Under the pieces are notes generated by a model that searched no databases, was not told the DNA's origin, and worked only from the letters and a program-made list of their open reading frames with translations. Positions 12,264 to 48,845 of a stretch of DNA of 64,000 nucleotides are shown here, one piece after another (position 1 is the first letter of the stretch; each line of letters starts with the position of its first letter). The DNA lies in NCBI GenBank assembly GCA_015143295.1, contig JABCRI010001165.1:44228-108227 (forward strand). The letters are read 5' to 3'. A program made the position numbers and the translations under genes. Source of the stretch: Tetracentron sinense. Lineage: Eukaryota; Streptophyta; Magnoliopsida; Trochodendrales; Trochodendraceae.

Positions 12264-15200
12264 ATGTCGAGGCAGAATCGCAATATGGAGGGTCTAATCA
12301 GGGGACCCTGCAAAATCCGAAAACGAGGCTGTTCATCATCGTCGTCATCTTCCTCATTAGTGCACAATTACAGGTTCAAAAGGGCTATTTTGGTAGGGAA
12401 GAGAGGAGGATCAAGTACCCCTGTTCCGACATGGAAGATGAGTTCAAGATCTCCTTCTTCCAATGTGGGAATTGTTGAATCTCCGAAATACCCACCATCT
12501 CAGAATGGTGGTAAAGTAAAGCCAACTCAAGTTTCTGCCCGGAAGCTCGCCGCCACTCTGTGGGAGATGCATGATATTCCTTCACCTCGAGTGAAAGAGG
12601 ATTTAGAGGAAAAATTAATTAAGAAAGAGATGAGTGGCAGAGAGAGAATCAATAGGTCAGTCCATTCTGGTTCTCTCCCTCGACATTTATCGGATCCATC
12701 GCATAGTCCTGTTTCAGAGGTGGGTTTCAGTGTTTTTTTCTTTTGATTTTTGGTTTCCTGAGATTGAGAAATTTGAGGTGCTTTGTGTTTCTTTGTTCAT
12801 TGAATATATCTGTCATTTTATCTTATCAATTTTGTAGAGAATGGATCGATCTGGAACTGGTAGTCACAGGAGAAGACCGTCGGCTGGTTCTCAGAGGCTT
12901 CGGCTTACTGACTATAATGTTGGAGGTTTGGATTCTGTTAGCAATTCCAGTTTAATGGAGGTAAACCCCAAGTCTAGCCTCCTCTTTCTTTAGAGCTCTT
13001 CTAAAGTCATTTTGTCTATGAATGATGTCTTGGTTTTTTTTCCTCTTATTACTTGGAATATTTACTTCTGATAAGCATGGCTCAAAAACCCGAAAACTTG
13101 ACTCAAAAGTTAGCGGGGTCAAGTAACTTGAGAAACTCACAAAAACTCGATTCAGCCCTATATATATATACCAATTAGGCAATTACCAATTTCTTGACAT
13201 TTTATCCAAGATTGAACTTCAAATAACTTGAACCAAAAAAACTTGTAAAACTACACATTAATTTGAAAAACCAAAAACTACCAATAACTTGTGTGTGTTT
13301 AGATTACCTCTTCAACCAAAAAAAAAACTATAAATAACTTGAAAAACCTGGGTTAAAATTTAAAAGAACCCAAAGCAGGTTGGTTTTGCAGCCTCAAACC
13401 TAAAAATCAAGTTTAACAAAACCCATAGACTTTGCAGCCCCAAAAAAATATGATGCAAGAACAGTGTGACGTTTGAGTTTTTGTTTTAAAAATACCCTTC
13501 GTGACTCGACTTAGTTTGGTGAGTCAAAAAACTTGACTCAACTCGACTGAGTCACCTGAGTAACTCGCCGAATAGTGTCTCCTTGAGTTTTGAGGCAACT
13601 CGAAACTTAGTCGAGTAGAGTAATGAGTAGAGTAACTCGGCCGAGTTACTCGGGTGATTCGCTGAGTTCTCAAACTGCCGATAAGAACCAAATTCTAAGT
13701 TGAGAACTTGAAAATTCCAAAATAAGGTCGAATTTCTGAAGATTTCTCAAGACCTTTGGGTTTTCCTCTTCAATGATATATTAATTTGTGATCAAATTAA
13801 GAAAAAAAATGACAAGAAAGCATAAGTATATTGATCTCATCTTTTGCACTGCAGATTGAGACTCGATCTAGAGGCATGACTCCTACAGGATCCATTGTTG
13901 GAGTTAAGGCGCGTTTGAAGGATGTCAGTAATGGTCTGACCACATCTAAAGAGCTTCTGAAAATTCTCAACCGGGTTTGGGGTCTTGAAGAACAAAATTC
14001 ATCAAGCATGTCCCTTGTCTCAGCTCTACGTGTCGAGCTTGAACGGGCTCGCATGCAGGTTGATCAGCTAATCCAAGAACAGCGATCTGATCGCAATGAG
14101 ATCAATTACCTGATGAAGCGTTTTGCAGAAGAAAAGGCAGCATGGAAAAGCAAGGAGCAAGAAAAGATTCAGGCTGCTATTGAGTCCATTGCTGGAGATC
14201 TTGCAGTGGAGAGGAAACTGAGGAGACGAACTGAGAGCTTGAACAAGAAGCTAGGTAGAGAATTAGCAGAGACAAAGACATCTCTCTTGAAGGCAGTGAA
14301 AGAGCTTGAGAGTGAAAAGAGAGCAAGAGAAATAATGGAACAAGTCTGTGATGAGTTAGCCAGGGGTATTGGAGAAGACAAAGCTGAGGTGGAAGAACTG
14401 AAAAGGGAGTCTGTAAAGGTTCGGGAAGAGGTGGAGAAGGAAAGGGAAATGCTTCAGCTAGCTGACGTTTTGCGTGAGGAGAGAGTTCAAATGAAGCTCT
14501 CCGAGGCTAAATATCAATTCGAGGAAAAAAATGCGGCAGTGGAAAAGCTGAGAAATGAGCTTGAAGCCTTTCTGAAAGCCAAAAGTGCAAAAGAAAATGG
14601 AGGTGGGTCTCTGAATCATGAGAGCAATGGGGACATTGTGGCCTATTTGAGTAAAACTCATTTTGGCTCTTACCATAGCGAAGGAAAAGGAGAGGATGAG
14701 GGAGAAGTAGAAGAGGAAGAAGAAGATGACTCTGGTGAAAGTGATCTTCATTCCATTGAACTTAACATGGACAACAACAGCAAGAGCTATAATTGGACTT
14801 ATGCTTCTGGGGCTATTCAAGAAGATCCAAAGAGAGTCTCCATTGAGGAAGAAATCAAAGGGAGGAAGTCTACCTCTGAGAAAATACCAAGGGGAAGAAT
14901 TTCTCTAGAAAGAGGCCTTTCAGACGGAATCGAATGGGAATTAACTGAAAGTCATCAAAATTCAGGTGGTGGGTTTGATTGGGAAAGATTTTCTGAGCTT
15001 GAGAAGCAACCTCGGAGACAAGATTACGGGGATGAAACCCAGAGATATAACTCCGTGAAGAGTCTTAGGGACCACATATTGTCTGGTTCTATAAAAGCAA
15101 CAGCCCAAGGCTTCGCCAGTCCGACCCGGGAATGGGATCAACCTTGGCCTTCACAAGATCCTGGCAATTTGTCTCAGGAAAGACCAACCGTGATGCAGGG

Positions 15201-15270
15201 GACCAGTTTGAAGGCGGGACAAGTGGAAGCCAGAGGAGAAAGGCAGAATTCAAGACATTCGAGACGTTAA
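12264..15270 (+). CDS. Coiled-coil protein, At5g41620-like family (three exons)
   Basis: The exons are 12264-12719, 12838-12960 and 13855-15270. Both introns have GT/AG ends and phase 0, giving 664 residues and a TAA stop. The N-terminal part is Ser-rich. Residues near 91-104 hold the family signature ARKLAATLWEMHDIP. Residues from about 252 to 435 are a long heptad-like, Glu/Lys/Arg-rich coiled coil. A Glu/Asp-rich acidic patch follows, then a basic, polar tail. There is no signal peptide or membrane span. The family is annotated as At5g41620-like or intracellular transport USO1-like from coiled-coil similarity alone; its biochemical role is not established. The second intron (12961-13854) is mostly a hAT-type MITE. 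The first ATG in frame was chosen because it precedes the family signature and follows a splice acceptor. Confidence 0.85.
13076..13677. mobile_element. hAT-type MITE in intron 2 of the coiled-coil gene
   Basis: The ends CATGGCTCAAAAACCCG and (inverted) CAGTTTGAGAACTCAG are related. Flanking 8-mers CTGATAAG (13068-13075) and CCGATAAG (13678-13685) match at 7 of 8 positions. The interior is dense in ACTCGAC/GAGTTACTCGG motifs. The MITE at 33654-34167 shares this composition, so the two are probably one family. It lies fully inside the intron. Confidence 0.7.
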
Positions 15271-26639: not shown

Positions 26640-26832
26640 AGGACCGAGCGATCGGTGGTTATGACCGAGCGATCGGTTGCCTACCGATCGATCGGTGTTT
26701 ATGACCGGGCGATCGGTCAAAAACACACTCTCTGGAAAATTTCCCCATACAAAATTCTGGGTCAGTCGATAGATACCGATCGATCGGTTTTGGACCGATC
26801 GATCGCTGGTTCTGACCGAGCGATCGGTTCCT
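26640..26832. repeat. Cluster of GAGCGATCGGT / CGATCGATCGGT motifs
   Basis: ACCGAGCGATCGGT, ACCGATCGATCGGT and ACCGGGCGATCGGT variants recur at least seven times. Most are perfect or near palindromes. They lie in the LTR upstream of its TATA-like box in the element's own orientation, so they may be U3 control sites. Related TCGATCGG motifs are in the LTR at 6330-6440. Confidence 0.7.
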
Positions 26833-28429: not shown

Positions 28430-29330
28430 TTTCCTGGTAGAAGGAAGATAACAAAACTCCGCCTACAAATGAAACTGAGGGGGCGGGTGTGCACCCTGAA
28501 ATAAGCTCCGATGATAAAGTCAGTATAAAACATAAGTATATGAGCATGATAGTGTAGAGATACTTATCGTGAGGTCATTGAGCATATGCGCTTGAAGACG
28601 GGCTCTGGTGTTATGCTCTAGAGGATGAGCTATGGGAAGGTATAGAATGTAGTGCAATACAGGACGTACCTTGGGAGACACAGAGGACGTAACTCTCGGA
28701 CAACGGAACTCTCAGACAACAGAACTCCCAGACAACGTAACTCTCGAACAACGCAGCTCGGACAATGTAGCTATCGAACAACGCAGCTCTCGGACAACGC
28801 AGCTCAGACAACGTGTACGTTGTGCACACGACAACGGGTACGTTGTGCACACGACAACGGGTCAACGTAGCTCGGACAATGGGTACAACTCAGGCACAGC
28901 TTAGGCACAACGGGTATAACTTGGATAACACAACGAATGGTACAACGGGTGACACAATGGATAGCACAGCGGATGGCAAAGCAGATGGCACAGCAGGTGG
29001 CACAACATTTATGGAGAACATCAAATGAAGAGGAGTGAATCAAGTGAGTGATTGTCTTCATAGCCTTTGGAGTTAAGGTGTGAACGACTCAAGCCTCCCA
29101 GTTCTCCTTCTTCTTCTTCTTCTTCTTTTCTCTTTTTTTACTTTCTCTCTTGTCTTCCGCACCATCCTCCCTTTCTCCGGTGATTCTTGCTTATTTATTT
29201 GCATTTGGAGTCATCATGACTTGTGTAGTCATGATAAGGTCACCTATCAGATAACACTTAAGAGAGTTAGCACATTGCCCAAGTGGGCTTATGTCGGCTA
29301 AATTGTTAGAATTTGCTAGAATGAGAAATT
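28430..29330. repeat. ACAACG-rich non-coding repeat block
   Basis: From about 28690 to 29005 the motifs GGACAACG and CACAACGG recur in a loose array. The leading part (28432-28530: GGTAGAAGGAAGATAAC, GTGTGCACCCTG, CTCCGATG) matches the block at about 35025-35110, which also carries ACAACG motifs (35500-35610). The two are related repeats, probably LTR or leader sequence of one element family. No protein is recognised. Confidence 0.5.
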
Positions 29331-34200: not shown

Positions 34201-37200
34201 TTAAACAACATATACGAGGTCGGGTTGAGTGAAAAGCACATGAGACTACCCACCAGTTGTCAACAGAGGGTAGAATCAGCCAGAAGTTTTCCATCTACAT
34301 GATGCTGCTTAACATTAAGCTCCATTAGAGTATTGACATTTTTATCATTAGTTAGTTGTGGATGATCGATGAGATAACAGTCATTTTTATCCAAGCAACC
34401 ACTTGGAGAAGTGATGTCAGGACCAATTAATAGTGGAAAGGACCAAGGTCCTTCATGTCAAATTGCTGTTATAGTTTGATGCTTGATGCCCTGGATCCTT
34501 ATAAGGTGATCGATCACATGTGATGGTCATATTATTGTCATATAGGGGCTAAAGAACTTGTCCTTTAGTAGGGTATGTTATGATGAAAGAATGATCATGA
34601 TCACTTCACGTGAAACCTATAGAAAGGAAGACAGGGGAGAATTTTGAAACGAAGGCTCTAGATTCATGTTTGAGGCCTTACAGAGCAAGCCCCAATCTAC
34701 AGACATGACAAGAAGGATGTGATAGTCTTGAGGGATAAGCTTTATGCGGTTGCTTTGTAGATAAATGCATTTTTCACATCCATTTGATGGAAATTTCCAT
34801 TCTTTAATAGCAACGATAAAAAAAAAACGACATTACTAAGGGTGTGTAGAGATGTCATCTTTAGGACCAGATGAAAGTTCTCTTCATAGATAACGTCATA
34901 TTCTTGATAGAATCCTTTTACAACAAGATAGGCTTTGTACTGCTCAATGTTCCTTGAAATCAAGTTGTGCGGGAATTTTTCGGGGAAGCCACGCATCAGC
35001 AGCTGCTTCGAAGTCCAGTTTATTGGTAGAAGAAAGATAGCAAAGCTCCAATTGCTGATGAGGTAAAGGAGAGAAGGGTGTGCATCCTGTAATACACTCT
35101 GATGCCAAAGTTAGTTTTTGAAGAAAATGATGAACAGTAAGAAAGCTGAAGCAATAAGAGTGAGAAATACGAAATTTCGTGATCCTTAAGCACTGAGTCT
35201 CTAGGGGTATTTATAGGTTTAGCTCTGCATGCCCATACATAGCCATGGATGACCATGCCACTTGCTTTACACTCATTACCAAATATGTCAGACAGATCTT
35301 GAATCATACGTGTCACACGTGTGAGCTTACAATTCGTAAGGTCGGTCTGGGGTCGAAACTCGGCTGAGATGACTAGCATTAATTGCATTAAATGCTAAGA
35401 GAGTGCTTTTCACCTAACAACAGAGTAGAATGATTGTCTCCTGGTTATTTCGTCCTGCGAGTCGGTCTCGTTGTTGATTCAAGCTCGGACTCGTTGTCTA
35501 TGGAACACGGATAGAGTAACGGTTGTCTAAAGAGGATGGTTACGTTCGTCCTCCGAACAACGAATACGTTGTCATGTAGACAACGGGTCCGTTGTCTTGA
35601 AGAGAATGGATTTGTTCTCTATTGGGTTACGTGTCTTCCATCAGTTGACATATCAACGAAAGCTAGCTCGTTCTCCAACACTTAATCATTTTTACGAATT
35701 TTATCCATTACACAAGTCTTTACCTTGTACCATAGTCTCCAACTCCGAAATTATTCATCCTGCAGGGAAACATTAAGAAAAAAAATCAGTAAATTTTGAA
35801 ATATGCGGAAATTTCAAATATATCCCAATACCTTTTAGAGTGTCTCATCCTCTTGTTTAGCTTTGAAATCGGACCTAAAACAACAAATATGTAGGCTTTG
35901 CCATAGAAAATCTAATAATTTTGCTTAGTTTGGAGTACTCTTTTAGAAATTTCATAATCAGTTTGCCTGGTATTGAGGTATTTTTGAATTTTAGAATATA
36001 TAAAAGCAAGGAATCTGTTGAATTCTTCTCATGCTTTCTGTGAGTTGTGCACCGAATGATTGGTCATATTGACAAAATACATAACAAGCATAGGTTTAAT
36101 GATTTATGCAATTTGAATGGTTTTCTTACCATGTTCTTGGAATGTTATAGAACTTCCTCGGTTTGGAGACTGATTGCTGCTGGTTTATTTGCAACCAGGC
36201 AAATCTATCGTTCAGTCAGATCGTGAGTGGTTCTTCTTTTCTCCCCGCGGCAGGAAATTCCCAAATGGCACGCAAAGTAGGAGGGCTACTGAAATTGGGT
36301 ACTGGAAAGCAACTGGAAAAGAGCGCACCATAAAGTCAGGTTCTAATTTGATTGGTACGAAGAGGACTCTAGTGTTCCACGTTGGCCGTGCACCAAAAGG
36401 GGAGAGGACAGACTGGATAATGCATGAATATTGTATGAAAGAAAAATGTCAGGTGATCTCTGATAACCTCTTCATAGAATATTGGTGGTTATGCAAGAGT
36501 ATTAATTACATTTTCCCGGATCAGTAACTGAATCTGTGAGAAGTGCTGATGAGTTGAATTTTCTATCACCAACATAGTACTACCTGTGACCTTGTTACAT
36601 TAATATAATTCAATTGTAGTGTTGGCCCAAAGGCAACCTTGCAGTCGTGATTACAAGTTACACCCTTTTTCCCATGTTACTGAAATGAATCTAATCGATC
36701 CCTTCGCCCATAGTAACAAAAGAATATGGACCTCTGCTACTTGATACACCACACCCAAATGCAGTGTGACCTATTGGGACGTAATATACGCTTTGAAAGA
36801 TGGATATAGGAGACATACTAATTGTCCTTGGCCAGAATTCCAAACTATTACCATAGGACTACATAGCACAGAATAGAATCATTCTCTGCCCAGCAGCAAT
36901 TGCGTTGTAGCCTTGTTAGAGCTCAATGACATGAGAAAGGGAAAATTTATGGATCCTACTGCTTCATCAGAGGGTCAAATATCTAGGTGGGGACCAGAAT
37001 ATTACATCTGCTTTGTTTTGTTTCAAATTGCAGTTTAGTAGGATGTAGTGTATATTCTATTATGATCCATGCTTGTAGATGGATATATTTGACTACATCA
37101 AAAACCACATTTAGAGATTTTAAAAAATGGTCATTATGGCATTCTTTTAATGATCACAAATAAAAGCATACAAGTCTGATGCAGACAGCATTTTTTGAGC

Positions 37201-39536
37201 TGAAGAAGCCTAGAAAAAGTGGATGCTGAGAACAGGTATTCTACAAGGAGGGCCCCAAACAATAGGCGGATTATTATTGTCTGCTTTATATTTCTTAAAT
37301 TTCAGTCACTGGGTAAGTGGAATCTACTTGTAAGTGATTGGTACAATTGATGTTTGAAATTTCATTGTTGTCATCACAGATATCACCAAGATTTGTGAGC
37401 CGTTCTTCTCGTTCAGTAACTCAATTTCATGATGTGATTTTGAAGAAATTTTTTCTTGTGAAATGCAGTGTGTCACTGCCATGGCCTGGAACTAGTTATA
37501 TGAGACTTGTCTATGATTGTTTAAAACATGTTCAGTTATTTCTGGAGGAGTTCAATTTTCAATAGGTATCTCATTGATTCTGGACTTCTTAATCTACAGG
37601 ACAGTTTTGTTATTTGCCGCCTTCGAAAGAAGAATGATTTGTGTGTGAACAGTGATACCCCAAATAGTGATTCAGTCAGTCAAAGTGGCTTATCACCTTT
37701 AACTGATTGTATTCGTGGGGTACCTGAAGATGGTGGTGACATGGAGCAACCACCGGTACCTCAAGATGATGGTGACATGAAGCAACCACAGACAGGAGTT
37801 GCTGATGGGAGTAAGGAAATGGGATGCTGTTCAAAGAAGTGGAGTAACAATTATGATTCTCTTTTTGTTGAACATACTGATTTTGCATCCACATCTGTTC
37901 AGAAACTAACAGATGAAATGTGCTATCCTCAGCCCGACTCTCAGATCAACCAGAAGGTTTGACTTATTCTTAACTTTGTTTGAGATACCTTATTTACATG
38001 GATATTTGATTGACTTTTTCCTGATGGGATAGCGTGTCATGAAGCAACCACAGTTGGGAGTTGCTGATAGGAGCAAGGAAATGGGATGTTGTTCAAAGAA
38101 GTGGAACAACAGTTATGATTCTCTTTTTGTTGGAGACACTGATTTTGCATCCACGTCTGTTCAGAAACCAACAAATGAAATGTGTTCTCCTCAGCCCGAG
38201 CCTGAGATCAACCAGAAGGTTTGGCTTATTCTTATCTTTGTTTGAGATACCTTATTTACATGGATGTTTGATTGACTTTTTCCTGATCGGATAGCGTACA
38301 CCCTCAACCTTCTGAGAATTGATTGTAAGTTCAGAAAGAAGAAAACTTCCCCCATCCCTTAATTAATGGAAGATTAGTGATAAGTCTTGTCTATCTATCA
38401 TACGACCCATTTGTAGATCCCTCTTGTGGGGGGGGAGTCTATCATACGACCTATTTGTAGATCCCTCTTGTGGGGGTGTGGAATGAAAGGAAACAGGTAT
38501 TTGTGATGAAAATAAAAAAAACAATAATAAGTTTATTTAATTTTAGACAAACAATATCCGCCCTCCCCTTTTTTTTTCCTTTCACCTTTGCATTGAAAGA
38601 ACACATTCCAATAAAATAAAGTTTAAAAAAGGAAAAAAAATGGTATGATTCAATTCAAGCTCAGACCCATTTGAATGTGGCGGACAACAGCGAGCAAGAA
38701 AATTTGACTGAACCATCAATAATTTGGAGCATGAAGTGCAATTAGATTAATTTATTTTGGGGATTGATATATGGTATGATTCAATTCAAGCTCAGACCCA
38801 TTTGAATGTGGCGGACAACAGCGAGCAAGAAAATTTGACTGAACCATCAATAATTTGGAGCATGAATTGCAATTAGATTAATTTATTTTGGGGATTGATA
38901 TATATATAAATTAATTAATTAATTAGACTCATTTAAAAAGCATGTAATATTTGATAGTTGATAAATGGGGACTCCGCATAAGTTAGGAATTCTGTAACAA
39001 AGTTCAAGGGTGCATTGGTATGATGGTTTATTCATGCTTCCTGATGATTCATTTCTGAGATTGCGTACATTCTTAAATGCCAGGATTGTGATGGAGAATA
39101 TGATTGTTTTGCTGACATATTGAAAGACGATATCATCAAGCTGGATGAATATCTAAGGCCTTCAGCTCTGTTACCTTTCCCAGTGGTTGCTAATAAGTCT
39201 GGAAGTGAGACAAAATATAAACAACCAATGCACGCAAGCATGCCACGGATTCTTCCTTTCCAGGGCACGGCAAAACGTAGGATCAGATTGAGAAAACTAG
39301 AACCAAGGCAGTATTGTGCAGAGACATTGGAAGTTGGAGATCAGGGCTACAGTGTGGAAGAAGTGATTCAGAAAGATGCAGAGCAGTTGCCAAAATGCTT
39401 GAAGAGTGTGTTATCAGTCAGCATGCTCAATAATCGGCTCATATTTGTACTTTTGCTTGTCATGGCTTTGCTGGTTTTGTATCTGCTGGTGCTCAGAGGA
39501 TTGGGGAATCTCAAGAAGTTAAGCATCATGTTGTAA
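31224..39536 (+). CDS. Membrane-anchored NAC transcription factor (NTL type), five exons
   Basis: The exons are 31224-31413, 36199-36452, 37600-37956, 38033-38218 and 39084-39536, all with GT/AG introns and consistent phases, giving 479 residues. Starting instead at the ATG at 31251 gives 470. The NAC DNA-binding domain (residues about 18-160) shows [80 protein letters not shown] and [12 protein letters not shown] Ser/Gln-rich middle follows, then exon 5 with [10 protein letters not shown] and a single hydrophobic segment (residues about 448-466) before a short basic tail. Membrane-tethered NACs sit in the ER or plasma membrane and are released to enter the nucleus. Exon 4 is a tandem copy of the end of exon 3. 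The 4.8-kb first intron is full of transposons. Confidence 0.9.
31803..32162. mobile_element. Mutator-type MITE in NAC intron 1, 9-bp target duplication
   Basis: The ends GGAGTCAAATCCTC and GAGGATTTGACTCC begin long TIRs that closely match the MITE at 1214. The perfect 9-bp direct repeat TCATTTGAA is at 31794-31802 and 32163-32171. GGCCACGTGTCC at about 31862 and its complement at about 32091 place two ABRE/G-box cores inside the NAC intron. Confidence 0.88.
32172..33085. other. NAC intron 1 sequence, non-coding
   Basis: No gene is recognised. Around 32870-32990 GTATCGCCGTA/GTATCGTATGGCCGTA motifs recur, probably one end of a small decayed MITE. Confidence 0.35.
33654..34167. mobile_element. 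hAT-type MITE nested in the copia relic, 8-bp target duplication
   Basis: Its ends are CAGTATTTTAAAACCC and, inverted, CATAGTATTAAAACTCG. It is flanked by a perfect CTTTAAAC at 33646-33653 and 34168-34175. It is rich in ACTCGACTCGG/CCGAGTT motifs and is probably the same family as the MITE at 13076. It splits the copia frame between the QLVGSL and RNase H segments, so it inserted after the copia element. Confidence 0.82.
34176..34193 (+). mobile_element. 18-nt A-tailed insertion with 13-bp target duplication
   Basis: AAACCTTCC followed by A9 separates two copies of GCTTACTTTAAAC (33641-33653, now separated further by the MITE, and 34194-34206). An A tail plus a 13-bp duplication suggests an extremely 5'-truncated retroposon insertion. 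A plain small duplication with filler is the alternative. Confidence 0.4.
35020..35700 (-). repeat. LTR-like/leader block in NAC intron 1
   Basis: The part at about 35025-35110 matches the block at 28432-28530. A minus-strand CCTATAAATACCCC box lies at about 35205-35218, and ACAACG/GTTGTC motifs recur at 35480-35610. It adjoins the copia relic and may be its 5' LTR or leader. No clean LTR terminus is visible. Confidence 0.4.
37777..38294 (+). repeat. 262-bp tandem duplication creating an extra NAC exon
   Basis: Unit 1 (about 37777-38032) and unit 2 (about 38039-38294) are offset by 262 bp. Each unit holds a 3' exon piece plus a 76-bp intron with its acceptor. Translated over 60 residues, the copies match at 48 positions. 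Both copies keep the GTTTG donor and GATGGGATAG/GATCGGATAG acceptor. Confidence 0.9.
38641..38902. repeat. 131-bp tandem duplication in NAC intron 4
   Basis: The unit beginning TGGTATGATTCAATTCAAGC is repeated almost exactly from 38772. It lies fully in the intron between exons 4 and 5. Confidence 0.85.
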
Positions 39537-40097: not shown

Positions 40098-40106
40098 CTG
40101 TAAATC
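40098..40106. repeat. Left 9-bp target-site duplication of the MULE
   Basis: CTGTAAATC, identical to 48837-48845 on the far side of the element. Confidence 0.92.
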
Positions 40107-40617
40107 GGGGAAAGTACGGAATTAGGCTTGAGTTTTTGAAAAATTACGGAAACCAGCTCCCTTTTGAAGGAGTTATTTTTTCCAGCCTACACGCGTGTGT
40201 AGAGCTGAAGCGTGCGGGAGGGCTTGTTACAATGTCCAAAATACCCCTGTAAAAACTGAACAGTTTATGGCTAACTCTTCCCATTCGATCGAATACCTTA
40301 CTTACCCATTTCGAACGCAGAGGAAGAAGTAGGAAGAGGAAGAAGGAAGAGGAAGAACGAAGAGGAAGAAGGAAGAGGAAGAACGAAGAAGGAAGAAGAA
40401 GGAAATTTCGGTTAAGAGGTATGGATTGAAACCCTGATCAAAACAGATGAAAATTTCGGTCACGCTTTTGTTGATTTTTTCGCATTTCGAACTCATTATG
40501 GATTGAACTCGTTAATTTAAGAGGAAGATAAACCCTAAGGAAATAAAACCATAACGAAGATGAACCCTTAAACCCTGTAAGAAAAATCCCAAAAATCGGG
40601 AAATCGGTAAAGATTTA

Positions 40618-40774
40618 CAGTCTCAAATTCGAGATAACAGTCTCGAATTCGAGATGGTTATCTCGAATTTGAGACTGTTATCTCGAATTCGAGATAACCA
40701 TCTCGAATTCAGGACAACCATCTTGAATTCAGGATGGTTATCTCGAATTTGAGATAACAGTCTCGAATTCAGGC
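40618..40774. repeat. Palindrome array in the left TIR (outer)
   Basis: Copies and variants of TCTCGAATTCGAGA alternate with 6-nt spacers TAACCA, TGGTTA, CTGTTA and TAACAG, giving a 20-bp period. The mirror copy is at 48214-48352. Confidence 0.9.
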
Positions 40775-40864
40775 TCTTTTTTTTTCTTAAAAGTAATTCT
40801 TAAACTGTATTACTAATATTAAGGAAGCCACACCCTAAAACCCCTGTAGGCAAAATCCAACGGC

Positions 40865-40957
40865 TGAATTCGAGGTTACAGTCTCGGATTCGAGATGGTT
40901 ATCTCGAATTCGAGATAACCATCTCAAATCCGAGACTGTTATCTCGAATTCAGGACT
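40865..40957. repeat. Palindrome array in the left TIR (inner)
   Basis: Same 20-bp palindrome/spacer pattern. The mirror copy is at 48032-48123. Confidence 0.9.
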
Positions 40958-42089
40958 GCTAATTTTTGAATTCCATCTTCCACTAATCAATTTTATTAAT
41001 ACTTGCAGAGTCAAGATGCCAAAAAACAGAGGAAAAGGGGATGACAAAGGCAAAGGGAAAGACAAAGGGAAGGGGAAAGAGGTGGAAAAGGCCCAACCTT
41101 CTGTGAAATGTACCATGAAATAATGGTTTGAAAAAATAAAGCCGCACTTGGAGGCCCATCCTGAGAGAAAGTCTTTATGAAAGCAGACTTGCTTTGGGCA
41201 TCTTTATGATTTGCCCAGAAATCCCCAATGTGGTCAGGCATTGCACCACCTACTTCAGAGGCGTAGGGATGCACTTACTTTTGATTTAGCTGGTAGTGTT
41301 ATGCGGTTTAGGTTGTTAGACTTCACCTTGATAATGGGTTTAAATGCTAGCATAGGTGTCCCTCCCGCCATAGTACCCGCCAATTCTCCTACCTCCCTAA
41401 AGGTTCGTAAGTTTGGTGAAGTACAACTTATAAAAAAATTGGACCTGCTTAGGGTGTTGGAGTCGTGTAACAATGATATGGACGCAATCAAGATTGCATT
41501 GGTCCTATATGTGGAGTTATTGATCATTGCAAAAGAGACACACTCGAACATCGAGATTGACTACTTGGATCTTGTAGAGGACCTCGATGCCTTTAACAAA
41601 TACCCTTGGGGCACTGTAGGGTACTCGATATTTAAGAAAAGTATTGAAATGACACATATAGATACTCCACAATACAACATTAACGGATGTTGTATTGCCT
41701 TTCAGGTATATTATATCCTTGATATAAGTTTAATTTGTAATTACACTCCTGTTTGTATTTTCATTTCAAATTGTAATGATGACAGGTTTGGATGTTTGAG
41801 TGCATTCCTGCACTTGGGAGATTATGTTCTCGCGAATCTCCGCCTACTACTGAGATGTTCCCTCGTGTTTTACGTTGGAAAGATACTACGTATAAAATCT
41901 ACAAGACATTGGAAGAAAAGATATTTAATGTAGAAGAGGTACGAAAGTGAAAGTTAGTATTTAGTTATATATTTTTTGTTTGCTTAGTTTAACATAATTT
42001 TATGTTCACAGCTTGAGGTTCCTTAAGTTGAATGTCACTGATCGTGAGAAGGAGCAAGAAGTTGTTAGGGGTGTCCTTGCACGAATGGG

Positions 42090-42262
42090 ATCTGATGACG
42101 ATGATGATGATGATGAGGCTGAGGATGAGGATGAGGATGAGGAGGAGGAGGATGGAGATGAGGAGGGTGGTGAGGAGGAGGATACTCTTGAGGGGGATGG
42201 TGATGAGCAGGCTGAGGTGGAGGGAGGGAATGATGATGGTGATGATGACGAGGAGGAGGGTA
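42090..42262 (+). repeat. GAT/GAG-rich low-complexity tract coding Asp/Glu
   Basis: This purine-rich trinucleotide tract lies in the third exon of the peptidase gene and encodes an acidic stretch in the expected frame. A C17 run at about 42266-42282 follows it. Confidence 0.75.
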
Positions 42263-42416
42263 GTCCCCCCCCCCCCCCCCCCGGTACATGAGCGAAGGTC
42301 AAAAACTGTAAGTAACAAAATTGAAACCCTAAATAAAGATGATTGTATCGAAACTGTTGTAAAATTTTGTCCTGAAATCGAGATTACAGTCTCGGATTCG
42401 AGATTACAGCTCGTAA

Positions 42417-42720
42417 TCTCGAATTCATGACTGTAATCTGGACTTCAGGCCCATTTATTCCATATATTTACATTTTATTGTGTCCTAATATCTAGCATTT
42501 TTTCAGGTACACGATGTACAAGCGAAATCACACCCATCTTTGTACAAGCGTCTCGAGATAACCATCTCGAATCCGAGGCTGTAATCTCGAATTCATGACT
42601 GTAATCTGGACTTCAGGCCCATTTATTCCATATATTTACATTTTATTGTGTCCTAATATCTAGTATTTTTTCAGGTACACGATGTACAAGCGAAATCACA
42701 CCCATCTTTGTACAAGCGTC
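42417..42720 (+). repeat. 168-bp tandem duplication at an intron/exon border
   Basis: The unit contains palindrome-array sequence, an intron 3' end with a TTTTTTCAG acceptor, and the first 45 or so bases of the next exon (GTACACGATGTACAAGCG). Its two copies have acceptors just before 42507 and 42675. Only the second copy reads on into the rest of the exon. Confidence 0.85.
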
Positions 42721-42934
42721 TGAAACGTTATTTTGGCCGACGGTTTGATGCCTTAGCCACGAAAATGGATTGCTTGGCTGACAGATTTGATAATTATGCA
42801 TCAGAAATGAGGGCTATGAGAAAAAGGGAAAGAAAAGAGATAGAAAAAGAAAAAGAAAAAGAAGAAGAAAAGAAAGAGAAAGACAAAGAGAAAGAGAATG
42901 CAGAAAGTATGCACCCCCTAGTGATGAAGAAAGA

Positions 42935-43085
42935 ACTATCTTTTCAGGGGGGCAGGTGGGTGATGAGGGAAGGCCTACCTGTTCAGGGGGGGAGGTGGGT
43001 GATGAAAGAAGGGCAACCTGTTCAGGGGGGGAGGTGGGGGATGAAGTAAGAACAGCCTGTTCAAGGGGGGAGGTGGGTGATGCTG
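42935..43085 (+). repeat. Four tandem 39-bp repeats coding a 13-residue unit
   Basis: Each unit contains TGTTCAGGGGGGGAGGTGGG, then TGATGA. In the frame used downstream it encodes a CSGGEVGDE-type unit. The repeat is specific to this region of the peptidase gene. Confidence 0.8.
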
Positions 43086-44681
43086 AAATAACGGCTTTTG
43101 AAGGTGATGATGATGAAACCCTTACAAGAGTTGAGGGAAGGCCACTAAGAGCCACAATCATTTCGAAGCATCTCCGCTCCCCTTACTTGAATACTAGAGT
43201 GAAGAAAAAAATGATCGAGGGCATGACCGCTAAAGACCCAATGAGGGAAGCTACGACAGCTGAAAAAAAGGCCCTACGAACCTTTTTGAATACGAAGGCA
43301 GATTCGAATAATATTAGGTAATTTTTCTAATTTTGAATTCAAAAGTAGATGCATAAATTATCATATTTCTCTACTTTAGAAAGTTTTTGAAATGTAGGCA
43401 GACGATATATAACGTTAGAATAACTCCGGAGATGCTCGCTGTTGTGTCAACTAGCAAAAGCTTGATCGATTCCACAGTAACAAACTCTTCCCATCTTTAA
43501 TTTAATGTTGTGTATCTCTTTTGTAATTCTAATAATCTAACACTAATCCTTTTATATTTATAGCATATTGACGTATGGATGGAGCTGTTGGCACAACGTC
43601 GTGAGAGACATCCCGCTCTTTACACTCAGTCCTGTGTCTTTGGACCTACTTGGTTCATGGTAAGGTCTCTTCTTATTATTTCATTACCGGTAACTCAATC
43701 TTTAAGGTATTCTAATGATTTAGTGTCTTCACAGGAATTTCTACTTCAAGAAGCAGACGTGTTAAGATCATATATGAATGCAAACGACTCTGTGACACGA
43801 GTGATGTTAAAGGACCAAATAAACCCTAACCTTAGACCCATTGTTGAGGGGTCAAGTGGGCGACCAGCCATGTGGTCGGCTGAGAGAGTGTACCTCCCGT
43901 TTCTCCATGGCCAGCACTGGGTGTTAGCGGTATTGGAACCCCCGAGAAACCAAGTCCTAATTCTGGACTCATACTTCACCGATGTCATAGACATGTATGC
44001 ATCAGAACTATGTACCATCAAAGAATGCATCCCCGCCTTCTTCCATATGTTTGGCGACGTGGAGGCTTTAGGCAAGGACTGGGTGGTACGGGAGGTCACC
44101 CACTTACCAAAACAAAAAAATACGTAAGTCTATATGAAAATAAGTAATTTATTTATAATTTAGCTCGCTTTTTTTTTTCCTATACTATAAAATACTAATG
44201 AAATGTGTTGTTTGTGTATCAAGCGCGATTGTGGAATATTCCTGATGAAATATGTTGATTTCTTATGTGCTGATTTGGAGATTCAGTTTGAGCAGGTATT
44301 ATTCCTTATTTTCCTCTAACTTACTATTTATGCTCTTGAAGGTTTTTTATTTATTTGACTCACTATTTATGCTCATAATATTTTAAATTTGTAGGTTGAT
44401 GTTTTGAAGTTCCGGAAGCGGATAGCCTGCGAGATAATGGATGGGGTTGCCAATCCTTAGGGGACATGGTCAAGGGGTGGGAGTGTCTTATGTGTTGTTT
44501 ATGTCAAGGGGGGCTCACTGTTTGGATGTACTAATTTTTTTATGGAAGGATGTTTAAGTTTTCAAACCTGACATGGATGTATGTATTGGATTTGTAATGG
44601 ATTTATTATGGATGTAAAGGATTCCCCCAAGGTAGCTAATTCACTGTTCATTTACAGTGAATGTCCCGAATTCAGACTAAC

Positions 44682-45175
44682 AAAATCTCGAATTCGAGAT
44701 AACCATCTCGAATTCGAAATGGTTATCTCGAATTCGAGATAACCATCTCGAATTCGAGACTGTTGCTTCCATTATTTTTCATTCTGTTCCAGATTATACA
44801 GGTGCAGGTCCTGAATTCGAGATAACCATCTCGAAATCATCCAAATCATCTCGAATTGGAAATGGTTATCTCGAATTCGAGACTGTTGCTTCCATTATTT
44901 TTCATTCTGTTCCAGATTATACAGGTTCGAGATAACCATCTCGAAATCATCCAAATCATCTCGAATTGGAAATGGTTATCTCGAATTCGAGATGGTTATC
45001 TCGAATTCGAGATAACCATCTCGAATTTGAGAGTGTTGCTTCCATTATTTTTCATTTTGTTCTAGATTATACAGGTCCAGGTCCTGAATTCGAGATAACC
45101 ATCTCGAAATCATCCAAATCATCTCGAATTCTAGATGGTTATCTCGAATTCAGGCTCCAATTCCAGATTACAGGT
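44682..45175. repeat. Palindrome arrays between the two MULE genes
   Basis: This 490-bp stretch lies between the convergent gene ends. Blocks of TCTCGAATTCGAGA units with TAACCA/TGGTTA spacers are separated by a linker (GTTGCTTCCATTATTTTTCA, continuing TTCTGTTCCAGATTATACAGG) that recurs near 44762, 44884 and 45035. It is thus a compound repeat: palindrome clusters inside larger 120- to 150-bp units. Confidence 0.88.
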
Positions 45176-45314
45176 TCTGTCTTGAGACTGTTGTTTCCAT
45201 TTGTCTCCCTTTATATACCATTCAAGTACATGGATGGATGAATTTTAACAATATTCGAATATACAAAATCAAGAATTCGATACAAAAACACTTTGAATTG
45301 TTATTATGAAATGA

Positions 45315-47882
45315 TCATACTTGTGGGATTACATTAGTACATGTTTGTCTATTATGACCACTTTGTTTGCATCTACCACATCTTACAGTAGGCCTTTCTT
45401 CGCCTTGTGAAGGAATTCTGTTCTTCTTTGGTCTCCCCGTGCTTCTTTTTTGTACAGGGGGTTTCATCCGCTTGGTCTCGGCTATTACTTCATCTGGGAG
45501 ATCCCAATGCTTTTTGTCATGTACCGGATATATTGACTCTTCATAGGTGGCTCGATACATATCAGATGTATAGTAGGGAGAAAAGTACGCATACGGATCA
45601 TGTCGATACTTATTACAGGCAGCCAAAACATGTATACAAGGCAACCCCTGTACATCAAATTTCCTACAGGTGCAAGTACGTTCAAGAAGCTTCACTGTAG
45701 CATTAAATTCTCCCCTCACATAATACTCATATCGAACAATTCCATCACATTCCAAATAACGTGCTTTAGAAAGTCTCCTTTGTAGTTTACCCTCAGCCCA
45801 TGTTGTTAGGCTTCCATTCATTTCCATCGCTTTGTTTCGTCGGTTAAAGAACATTCGTTGGATCTTAAGACGCACATCCTCTAAAAGCATTGTAACTGGA
45901 TATTCTCTCGCTTCCTTAAGCAAACTATTGATCGATTCAGCTACATTAGTAGTTACAATGTTATACCTTAGCCCAGGAAAGTATGCAGATGCCCATTTTT
46001 CTCTTGGAATTGCAGCTAACCATTCATATGCCTCGGGGTTTGCTCCTGCAAGACGTGACATAAACTCTTGGAACTTGTTGAACATGCATGTCTTTACGGC
46101 CGACCAAAATAACGGTTTCAGTCCCTCATCCTTGAATGCTGCATGCATATTCTGGCTAATATGATATGAGCAATAACTATGAATTGCATGTGGGAATGCA
46201 ATGGGGACTTGGCTTATCAAACTGGCGTGTCGATCAGTTATAATGACTAACCCTTCCATGTACCCAACTGAGTCAGCTAATTGTTTGAAAAACCACTTGT
46301 AACTGTCATTGTTCTCTGATTCAGCTATTCCATAAGCAACTGGACATATGTAGTTGTCACCATCAAGTGATGTTGCTATGATTAAGATCCCCTTGTACTT
46401 ACCCTTTAGATGCGTCCCGTCAACGGCTAATACTCTTCGTAAACTGAGCTGAAAACTTCTTATACAAGGTCCAAGAGCCACGAAACACCTTTCAAATGCA
46501 CCAGTATCTGGGTCACTCAATACTGCAGTTACTGTTCCCGGGTTGGTCCTGCGTAACTCGTACAAATAAGCGGGGAGGTCAGCGTACGAATCGTCGTATG
46601 ATCCTCTAACATGTTCTATTGCAATCTCTCTAGATCTCCACGCTTTCCGGTAACTCATTTGCACTCCATATTATTTCCAAACATCATGAATAATCTCTTT
46701 GGGCCTAGATGCCACGTGACCCTCGATTCGTCCCACGACCATGTCACTAATAACCAAACTAGATGCTTGTCGATGATCGGGCCCAGTTATGAGAAACCCA
46801 CCGGAGTGATGTGAATTATAAGTCTTTATCTTGAAGACACCCGACTCATTCACCCTTGATGCACGTAGCCTCCAAGTACAATTACCCCCAAGGCACTTAA
46901 CTACAAACTTTGATTTATTCGAATCCACAACCCTGTATTGGAAGTTTTTTATCATTGCATACTTTGCCAACACATTCTGTAGGCACCTCTTATCCTTAAA
47001 CATTTGCCCAAGTGAAATATCATCCGTATTGTCGAGTGCAGCCGCAAAGCCTGAAGGATCGAAATTGACATAGTCATCATTCTCAATCACATTTGATGAA
47101 GGGCCTTGACTGACTTGCCGAAAAGCAGACCTAGATGAGCTACAGATATTTGCACGGATAGGACCCTCATCAACATCGTCTCTGACAACATCTTCATCTA
47201 CCTCTACTGAATAATCATCATCAGCATCATCTTCTTCATCATCATCATCTTTAGCACATTCACCAACATTAGCACATTCATTATCTTGAACACCACAATC
47301 TTCACTATGGTAGTTGTCGCCCCTGCTGGTATCACCATAATCTACATATGTGTTAGGCACAAAACAAGTATATTGAGTTGGTCCTGTTGTCAAGTCTTCA
47401 AAGGGCCAAGGCACGGTTGGGAGGACAGGGTCGGGAACATAGACCGTAGAAGGCTGAAGGACATGACAAGTATCACCCTCGTTCGCATGGGGAATGGCAG
47501 TCTCATGATCAGGAAAACCTTCGTAACTCAAAGAGGGTGGACCACACTGTTGTACTCCCTTTGCAACTTCAGTTACATATATTGGCAAAAGTACATTATG
47601 AGTTTGTGCTCGCTCACATTCTGAAATAAATACCAACAAGTCTTCATCATCTTCAATATCAGTAGGAGGAATTGTCGGGTGTGTAGGGAACATAGACCTC
47701 AGTCTAATCTCAGTTTCTTCCCACCGGGATTTAGTCAATCGATAAACTCTGCTTAAAAGTTGCTCATGTGTCATTCCACTATACAACTGTATCAATTTCG
47801 ATTTTCCACCCTCATATACGTGGGACCTGTCAGGGAGAATCTTCCATTCTCCGTCATAACAACAAATCACTGATACATTCAT
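45315..47882 (-). pseudogene. MuDR-type DDE transposase of the MULE, one in-frame stop
   Basis: Read from 47882 down to 45315, there are 856 codons in one frame with a single internal TAA at 46671-46673 (codon 404). The N-terminus (YDGEWKI ... SGMTHEQLLSRV) is the PB1-like part of plant MULE proteins. An acidic low-complexity region follows, then the zinc-binding MuDR N-domain (KFVVKCLGGNCTWRL). The DDE core shows VDGTHLKGK (Asp at about codon 488), ITDRHASL (Asp 550) and TNVAESINS (Glu 649). A SWIM finger CTCRKF ... CIHVLAAC lies at about 737-756 and a terminal CCHC knuckle CGRCKQSGHNRQTC near 840. The start follows a TTGATGTTGCAG acceptor, suggesting a leader intron. All catalytic residues are present; the one visible defect is the nonsense codon. 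Confidence 0.9.
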
Positions 47883-47969
47883 TATCTGCAACATCAAGAA
47901 AAAACAACGCAAAAACTCAACAATGTCAATGCTTTACAATACAGACTCAACAATGAAAGCAAAGGGTGG

Positions 47970-48836
47970 ACATCTTGACTCTGCAAGTATTAATAAAATT
48001 GATTAGTGGAAGATGGAATTCAAAAATTAGCAGTCCTGAATTCGAGATAACAGTCTCGGATTCGAGATGGTTATCTCGAATTCGAGATAACCATCTCGAA
48101 TCCGAGACTGTAACCTCGAATTCAGCCGTTGGATTTTTCCTACAGGGGTTTTAGGGTGTGGCTTCCTTAATATTAGTAATACAGTTTAAGAATTACTTTT
48201 AAAAAAAAAAAAAAGCCTGAATTCGAGACTGTTATCTCGAATTCGAGATAACCATCCTGAATTCAAGATGGTTGTCCTGAATTCGAGATGGTTATCTCGA
48301 ATTCGAGATAACCATCTCGAATTCGAGACTGTTATCTCGAATTTGAGACTGTAAATCTTTACCGATTTCCCGATTTTTGGGATTTTTCTTACAGGGTTTA
48401 AGGGTTCATCTTCGTTACGGTTTTATTTCCTTAGGGTTTATCTTCCTCTTAAACTAACGAGTTCAATCCATAATGAGTTCGAAATGCGAAAAAATCAACA
48501 AAAGCGTGACCGAAATTTTCATCTGTTTTGATCAGGGTTTCAATCCATACCTCTTAACCGAAATTTCCTTCTTCTTCCTTCTTCGTTCTTCCTCTTCCTT
48601 CTTCCTCTTCCTACTTCTTCCTCTGCGTTCGAAATGGGTAAGTAAGGTATTCGATGGAATGGGGAGAGTTAGCCATAAACTGTTCAGTTTTTACAGGGGT
48701 ATTTTGGACATTGTAACAAGTCCTCCCGCACGCTTCAGCGTTACACACGCGTGGAGGCTGGAAAAAATAACTCCCTCAAAAGGGAGCTGGTTTCCGTAAT
48801 TTTTCATAAACTCAAGCCTAATTCCGTACTTTCCCC
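47970..48836. repeat. Right terminal inverted repeat of the MULE (867 bp)
   Basis: This is the inverted counterpart of 40107-41018. It holds palindrome arrays at 48032-48123 and 48214-48352. Reading inward it lies upstream of the transposase and probably drives it. Confidence 0.9.
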
Positions 48837-48845
48837 CTGTAAATC
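48837..48845. repeat. Right 9-bp target-site duplication of the MULE
   Basis: CTGTAAATC, identical to 40098-40106. Confidence 0.92.

Follow-up and report, generated by a model that had tools for sequence, protein, structure and literature searches.

Background

Why should a plant transposon carry one short palindrome, repeated in regular arrays, both near its two ends and within its interior? The question is raised by a Mutator-like element (MULE) of 8,730 bp (40107-48836), which lies in a 64,000-nucleotide stretch of the genome of Tetracentron sinense (contig JABCRI010001165.1, positions 44,228 to 108,227; hereafter the window, in which all positions are counted). The original prediction, which drew attention to the 14-bp palindrome TCTCGAATTCGAGA in this element, offered transposase binding sites, a 3'-end or silencing hairpin and an independently spreading satellite as explanations, and knew of no description of such an arrangement. 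We think that an explanation missing from these proposals is the best fit, namely that the arrays are targets of a sequence-specific anti-silencing protein of the transposon family, of the DUF1985-Ulp1 (KIU/VANC) type, a reading to which we would give a probability of roughly one half. The arrays are a real and regular feature of this DNA and fit a system of a known type, though in a novel form.

Palindrome arrays of the element

Both the sequence of the palindrome and its placement in the MULE had been given correctly in the original prediction. At up to two mismatches TCTCGAATTCGAGA occurs 36 times in the window (13 of the copies being exact), against 0.20 copies expected per dinucleotide shuffle of the whole window, and none of 100 shuffles reaches 36. 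All 36 copies fall between 40621 and 45135 or between 48034 and 48348, i.e. inside the element, and the remaining 55 kb of the window hold none at this threshold; the independently spreading satellite that had been envisaged was thus not found there. At three mismatches at least two isolated matches (16532 and 19925, among the matches listed) lie beyond the element. A strict scan, which required three similar palindromes in succession at a constant period and overlooks a looser array of variable spacing at 26.6 kb, yielded 7 triplets, all in the element; 5 Markov-simulated windows held no triplet with 20 or more of 28 bases matching.

Spacing was examined in a relaxed set of 44 copies with up to three mismatches within the element. 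Neighbour distances below 60 bp number 33 in this set, and 29 of them are exactly 20 bp, the others being 40 bp (two), 27 bp and 12 bp (one each). The six-nucleotide spacers of the 29 regular pairs are predominantly TGGTTA (10), TAACCA (8), CTGTTA (4) and TAACAG (3), with CAACCA, TTACAG, CTGTAA and TGGTTG found once each. Spacers in both orientations on a mostly 20-bp period were thus confirmed, but their alternation is a tendency rather than a rule: counted by hand, 10 of 13 neighbouring spacer pairs differ in orientation (4/6 in the outer and 3/3 in the inner array of the left terminal inverted repeat, and 2/2 and 1/2 in two intergenic arrays, inter_1 and inter_3). The right terminal inverted repeat (TIR), where switches amount to 3/3 and 4/5, was not included here, being nearly a duplicate of the left one. 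The left inner array as a whole is a 90-bp near-palindrome, with a self-inverted match at 40864-40953 of 93% identity.

The arrays occupy the region at ~0.5-0.85 kb from the ends of the element, upstream of both genes, as well as a predicted intron and the gap between the genes (Table 1). Within the TIRs the outer arrays begin 0.49-0.51 kb and the inner ones ~0.71-0.76 kb from the outer TIR end; ~60 bp lie between the end of the left inner array and the ATG of the DUF1985 gene, which we placed by eye at 41016, and ~150 bp between the right one and the likely start codon of the transposase gene. None of the 44 relaxed copies falls within the coding blocks, which were estimated by eye and cover ~5.05 of the 8.73 kb.

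The internal arrays are more than remnants of TIRs. When the intron and intergenic stretches were compared with the left TIR by blastn (E up to 1e-3), matches were obtained only at TIR positions 505-670 and 758-857, which are the two arrays of that TIR together with their edges. The unit therefore occurs in the interior without the surrounding TIR sequence, which supports the earlier suggestion in so far as TIR ancestry does not account for the arrays. The arrays also turn over: the gain or loss of exactly one 20-bp unit sets the outer arrays of the two TIRs apart, and spacer types vary among the places. The TIRs themselves show 854 identities in 916 alignment columns, 47 of which are gap columns; in a second comparison 15 of 864 aligned columns differ, in addition to gaps of 26 bp and 20 bp.

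Table 1. Positions of the element's features and of its palindrome arrays
Feature	Position	Strand	Basis or remark
Target site duplication, left copy, 9 bp	40098..40106		Identical to 48837-48845
Left TIR, ~0.91 kb	40107..41019	+	Alignment to right TIR; starts GGGGAAAGTACGGAATTAGG
Outer array, left TIR	40621..40774		8 units, 20-bp spacing
Inner array, left TIR	40862..40955		5 units including a degenerate first
DUF1985 and Ulp1-type (C48) peptidase gene	41016..44458	+	Pfam matches, open frames; intron-exon limits estimated by eye
Predicted intron of DUF1985 gene	42308..42674	+	By eye; GTAAGT (42308) to CAG (42672-42674)
Intron array, part one	42370..42430		TCTCGAATTCGAGA matches
Intron array, part two	42565..42598		TCTCGAATTCGAGA matches; within a 168-bp tandem duplication
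39-bp tandem repeat in DUF1985 gene, 4.2 copies	42921..43082	+	Open frame 42794-43321; 13 residues per unit if translated
Arrays between 3' ends of convergent genes	44686..45155		Include a larger duplication, 92% identical
MULE transposase gene (DBD_Tnp_Mut, MULE, SWIM domains)	45315..47882	-	Pfam matches, open frames
Right TIR, ~0.87 kb	47967..48836	-	Alignment to left TIR; same GGGGAAAGTACGGAATTAGG start
Inner array, right TIR	48034..48127		5 units including a degenerate last
Outer array, right TIR	48215..48348		7 units; the left array has one 20-bp unit more
Target site duplication, right copy, 9 bp	48837..48845		Perfect match with left copy

Relationship to VANC- and KIU-encoding elements

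The element is flanked at both ends by the 9-bp target site duplication CTGTAAATC, as is usual for MULEs, and encodes a MULE-type transposase with matches above cut-off to PF03108 (E 4.2e-14), PF10551 (E 4e-19) and PF04434 (E 6.3e-10). Convergent with this minus-strand gene is a plus-strand gene with matches to DUF1985 (PF09331, E 1.7e-16, in 41181-41933) and, further downstream, to the Ulp1-type peptidases (PF02902, E 5.1e-6, in 43564-44127).

This gene content leads to the closest described system that we found, the VANC anti-silencing proteins of the Arabidopsis VANDAL MULEs, and a parallel to the arrangement does therefore exist in the literature, contrary to what had been supposed. According to the available excerpts of the literature, on which the whole of this comparison draws, VANC proteins contain DUF1985 and variable regions often with tandem peptide motifs; VANC21 binds the motif YAGTATTAY in intron, intergenic and terminal non-coding DNA, where the motifs are dense and often form tandem repeats in which units are gained and lost, and CG methylation is lost locally where the protein sits (PMC5735166). 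The arrays described here resemble the target arrays of VANDAL21 and VANDAL6 (PMC5735166, PMC10398659) in being dense short tandem motifs in the same three kinds of non-coding DNA. Further likenesses are the presence of DUF1985, recognised here by its domain match, the gain and loss of units (the 20-bp difference between the TIRs and the larger duplications), and the 39-bp tandem repeat in the DUF1985 gene, which is reminiscent of the tandem peptide motifs found in VANC proteins (PMC5735166). On the strength of these agreements the present arrays probably work like VANC targets.

The DUF1985 gene of the present element, unlike VANC of VANDAL21 and VANDAL6, additionally carries the Ulp1 peptidase. 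VANC genes with an Ulp1 domain are termed KIU genes in a review, in which the elements carrying them are said to act on non-coding DNA motifs of their own kind (PMC13317346). As in the KI-MULEs of Arabidopsis (PMC2528002), the Ulp1 gene is here in reverse orientation to the transposase gene; those elements, unlike the present one with its TIRs of ~0.9 kb, lack TIRs (PMC2528002). As its TIRs are long, and not degenerate as in VANDALs or missing as in the Arabidopsis KI-MULEs, we file the element neither as a VANDAL nor as a KI-MULE in the Arabidopsis sense. In grape and melon Ulp1 genes occur in TIR-MULEs, in either orientation and with 9-bp target site duplications where these were found; motif arrays do not appear in the available part of their description (PMC2528002).

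Long-TIR MULEs with short repeats have also been reported from a mosquito, Aedes aegypti, in which 10 of 12 such families bear short tandem repeats in sub-terminal position, including Muta1 with 9 copies of a 12-bp unit separated by 3-4 bp (PMC5225508). Muta1 shares with the present element the long TIRs, a short tandem unit, variable in copy number in Muta1, and spacers of a few bases; long TIRs are likewise found in foldback MULEs, among them MuTAnT (PMC4486113). However, the repeats of Muta1, the other Aedes elements and MuTAnT are, in the portions of these articles at hand, described in the TIR or sub-terminal part, whereas here they lie ~0.5 kb inside and also in the predicted intron and the intergenic gap. 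The 13-base word TCTCGAATTCGAG turned up in four papers of the literature searched, which, judged by title and the start of the abstract, were unrelated to transposons.

Arrays as proposed targets of an anti-silencing protein

Taken together, gene content, the three kinds of array location, the turnover of units and the 39-bp tandem repeat in the DUF1985 gene all agree with a VANC/KIU-like system, and the lack of TIR flanks around the internal arrays counts in favour of this reading as well. We accordingly picture the following course of events. A protein of the type represented by the element's own plus-strand gene would load on sites spaced by about two helical turns, and, as the site is a 14-bp palindrome, which lengthens to 26 bp if the spacers on its two sides are inverted partners, it is conceivable, by pure conjecture, that it does so as a dimer. 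The bound protein would lower CG methylation locally, so that the element as a whole, together with the upstream region of each gene, stays open. Binding, loss of methylation and the effect on promoters are what the VANC literature leads one to expect for such arrays.

Several observations weigh against this reading. The VANC motifs quoted in the available text (YAGTATTAY, AGTTGTCC and AGTTGTAC; PMC5735166) are non-palindromic, and those of VANC21 stand in one orientation, unlike the 14-bp palindrome, the 20-bp lattice and the spacers in both orientations seen here. VANDAL TIRs are degenerate (PMC10398659), whereas those of the present element are long. The avoidance of coding DNA by the arrays is suggestive, not strong, because the coding blocks are estimates and only about four independent array locations lie behind it. 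Substitutions between the TIRs affect 2 of 232 array columns and 13 of 632 other columns (p 0.38), and this lack of a significant difference means that there is no direct sign of constraint on the arrays. The ratio of observed to expected CpG, with values of 1.48-1.57 for the three arrays in which it was determined as against 0.61 elsewhere in the element, speaks in favour of the reading, but its height is owed in part to the two CpGs that TCTCGAATTCGAGA itself holds. Lastly, the DUF1985 gene has early in-frame stops at 41121-41123 and 41178-41180 in the present copy.

Both of the array differences between the TIRs (2/2) sit at CpG sites. We also considered the decay of CpGs within the units, but the mismatch counts are confounded by a common CCTG/CAGG edge variant, and nothing was drawn from them.

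Alternative explanations

The two arrays in each TIR and the MuDR-type DNA-binding domain of the transposase would also suit arrays to which the transposase of the element or an assembly partner binds, with the sub-terminal repeats aiding the synaptic complex and the internal copies being decoys or by-products; the Aedes repeats, such as those of Muta1 (PMC5225508), lend some weight to this notion if they are, as we suppose here, transposase sites. Nevertheless, end recognition by the transposase, whose binding sites were among the original proposals, is less likely because the arrays do not start until ~0.5 kb from the ends and the same unit recurs in the middle of the element, in the predicted intron and between the genes, and we consider this explanation unlikely. 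Of a similarly low probability is a functionless self-propagating micro-satellite, whose palindromic unit would slip and switch template at replication, thereby inverting the spacers, in non-coding DNA that tolerates it. This would account for the two spacer orientations, the one-unit difference between the TIRs, the larger local duplications and the substitution counts given above, which do not differ significantly inside and outside the arrays. It accounts less well for a unit that occupies several separate non-coding places of one element and is absent, at up to two mismatches, from the other 55 kb; moreover, as the intron and intergenic arrays lack TIR flanks, copying of neighbouring sequence is no simple explanation for them.

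The arrays might instead act as RNA, either as transcribed hairpins that feed small-RNA silencing or as marks of the 3' ends of the convergent genes, between which one block of arrays indeed lies. The capacity of whole arrays to fold into hairpins, claimed in the original prediction, was borne out by RNA folding of both strands: relative to dinucleotide shuffles, z scores were -7.1 to -17.2 in five stretches, one of which lies within another, whereas two exon controls gave +0.3 to +0.6. Tandem repeats and long MULE TIRs have been named as sources of small RNAs (in the excerpt of PMC10398659). Any palindromic unit yields hairpins, however. In a control that keeps the unit but breaks symmetry at the scale of the array, units and spacers were flipped at random 2000 times; it covered the TIR arrays and the two larger intergenic arrays, inter_1 and inter_3. 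Only the inner TIR array was more symmetric than expected (55/2000 on each TIR copy, the copies not being independent), and there was no excess in the outer arrays of the left (311/2000) and right (817/2000) TIRs, in inter_3 (1265/2000) or in inter_1 (1532/2000). As these four arrays do not exceed the control, the hairpin is mostly a by-product of the unit palindrome, and palindromy of whole arrays as a selected feature is unsupported as a general claim. With the arrays in the intron and upstream of the genes being, in addition, a poor fit to 3'-end formation, a role as RNA appears quite improbable to us.

Implications of the anti-silencing reading

Beyond the anti-silencing reading itself, a more elaborate and rather doubtful scenario may be drawn up, in which a TIR-bearing, Ulp1-carrying MULE lineage outside VANDAL evolved a palindromic anti-silencing target, which a dimer recognises at intervals of two turns. 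Being palindromic, such a target would let arrays expand through inversion in addition to slippage. Each TIR array would form a methylation-free island upstream of one gene, and transcribed arrays would fold into hairpins usable by the host for silencing, so that attack and defence would share one sequence.

If the arrays are anti-silencing targets, then sequence-specific anti-silencing would extend beyond the VANDALs, whose TIRs are degenerate, to a MULE that combines long TIRs, a Ulp1 fusion and a motif obvious by eye. The separate roles of the DUF1985 and Ulp1 parts, and the joint change of motif and protein, would become testable with a 20-26-bp probe. More generally, such a case would suggest that proteins may bind to what looks, in a plant transposon, like a regular palindromic "satellite".

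State of the genes and database searches

The transposase gene is interrupted by an in-frame stop (46671-46673) between its DNA-binding and catalytic parts. With the stops in the DUF1985 gene mentioned above, the present copy looks defective in both genes and is, therefore, probably not autonomous. An alternative acceptor for the predicted intron of the DUF1985 gene is possible at 42504-42506, and a long run of C at 42264-42282, closing an acidic-repeat exon of this gene, leaves the reading frame there uncertain.

The DUF1985 stretch gave no match to solved structures at E up to 1. An AlphaFold model of 174 of its residues, computed from the single sequence, reached a mean pLDDT of 46.6 and was set aside. 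Four weak matches of the N-terminal open reading frame of the transposase to solved structures (E 0.2-0.25) were disbelieved. In non-plant collections, the negatives from which say little, no relatives were confirmed for the C-terminal open reading frame of the transposase (genome contigs) or for the DUF1985 stretch (viral contigs), and no matches were obtained for the paired-14-mer pattern in viral contigs, for a slightly shorter version of it in bacterial and archaeal genome contigs, or for window positions 44600-45200 in plasmids.

Other features of the window

A second, unrelated 14-bp palindrome, ACCGATCGATCGGT, is found outside the MULE at 26643-26828, with 7 copies (at up to two mismatches) in two groups; with a spacing of 19-21 bp within a group, its form is strikingly similar to that of the TCTCGAATTCGAGA arrays. 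Tandem repeats of 16-30 bp with the half-palindromes ACAACG and CGTTGT occur at 28693-28862 and 35557-35603. A plus-strand open frame of 485 residues (13813-15270) has no Pfam match at E 0.001. Two tandem duplications lie next to the MULE, at 37772-38297 and 38640-38903, with periods of 262 and 131 bp and identities of ~90% and 99%, respectively.

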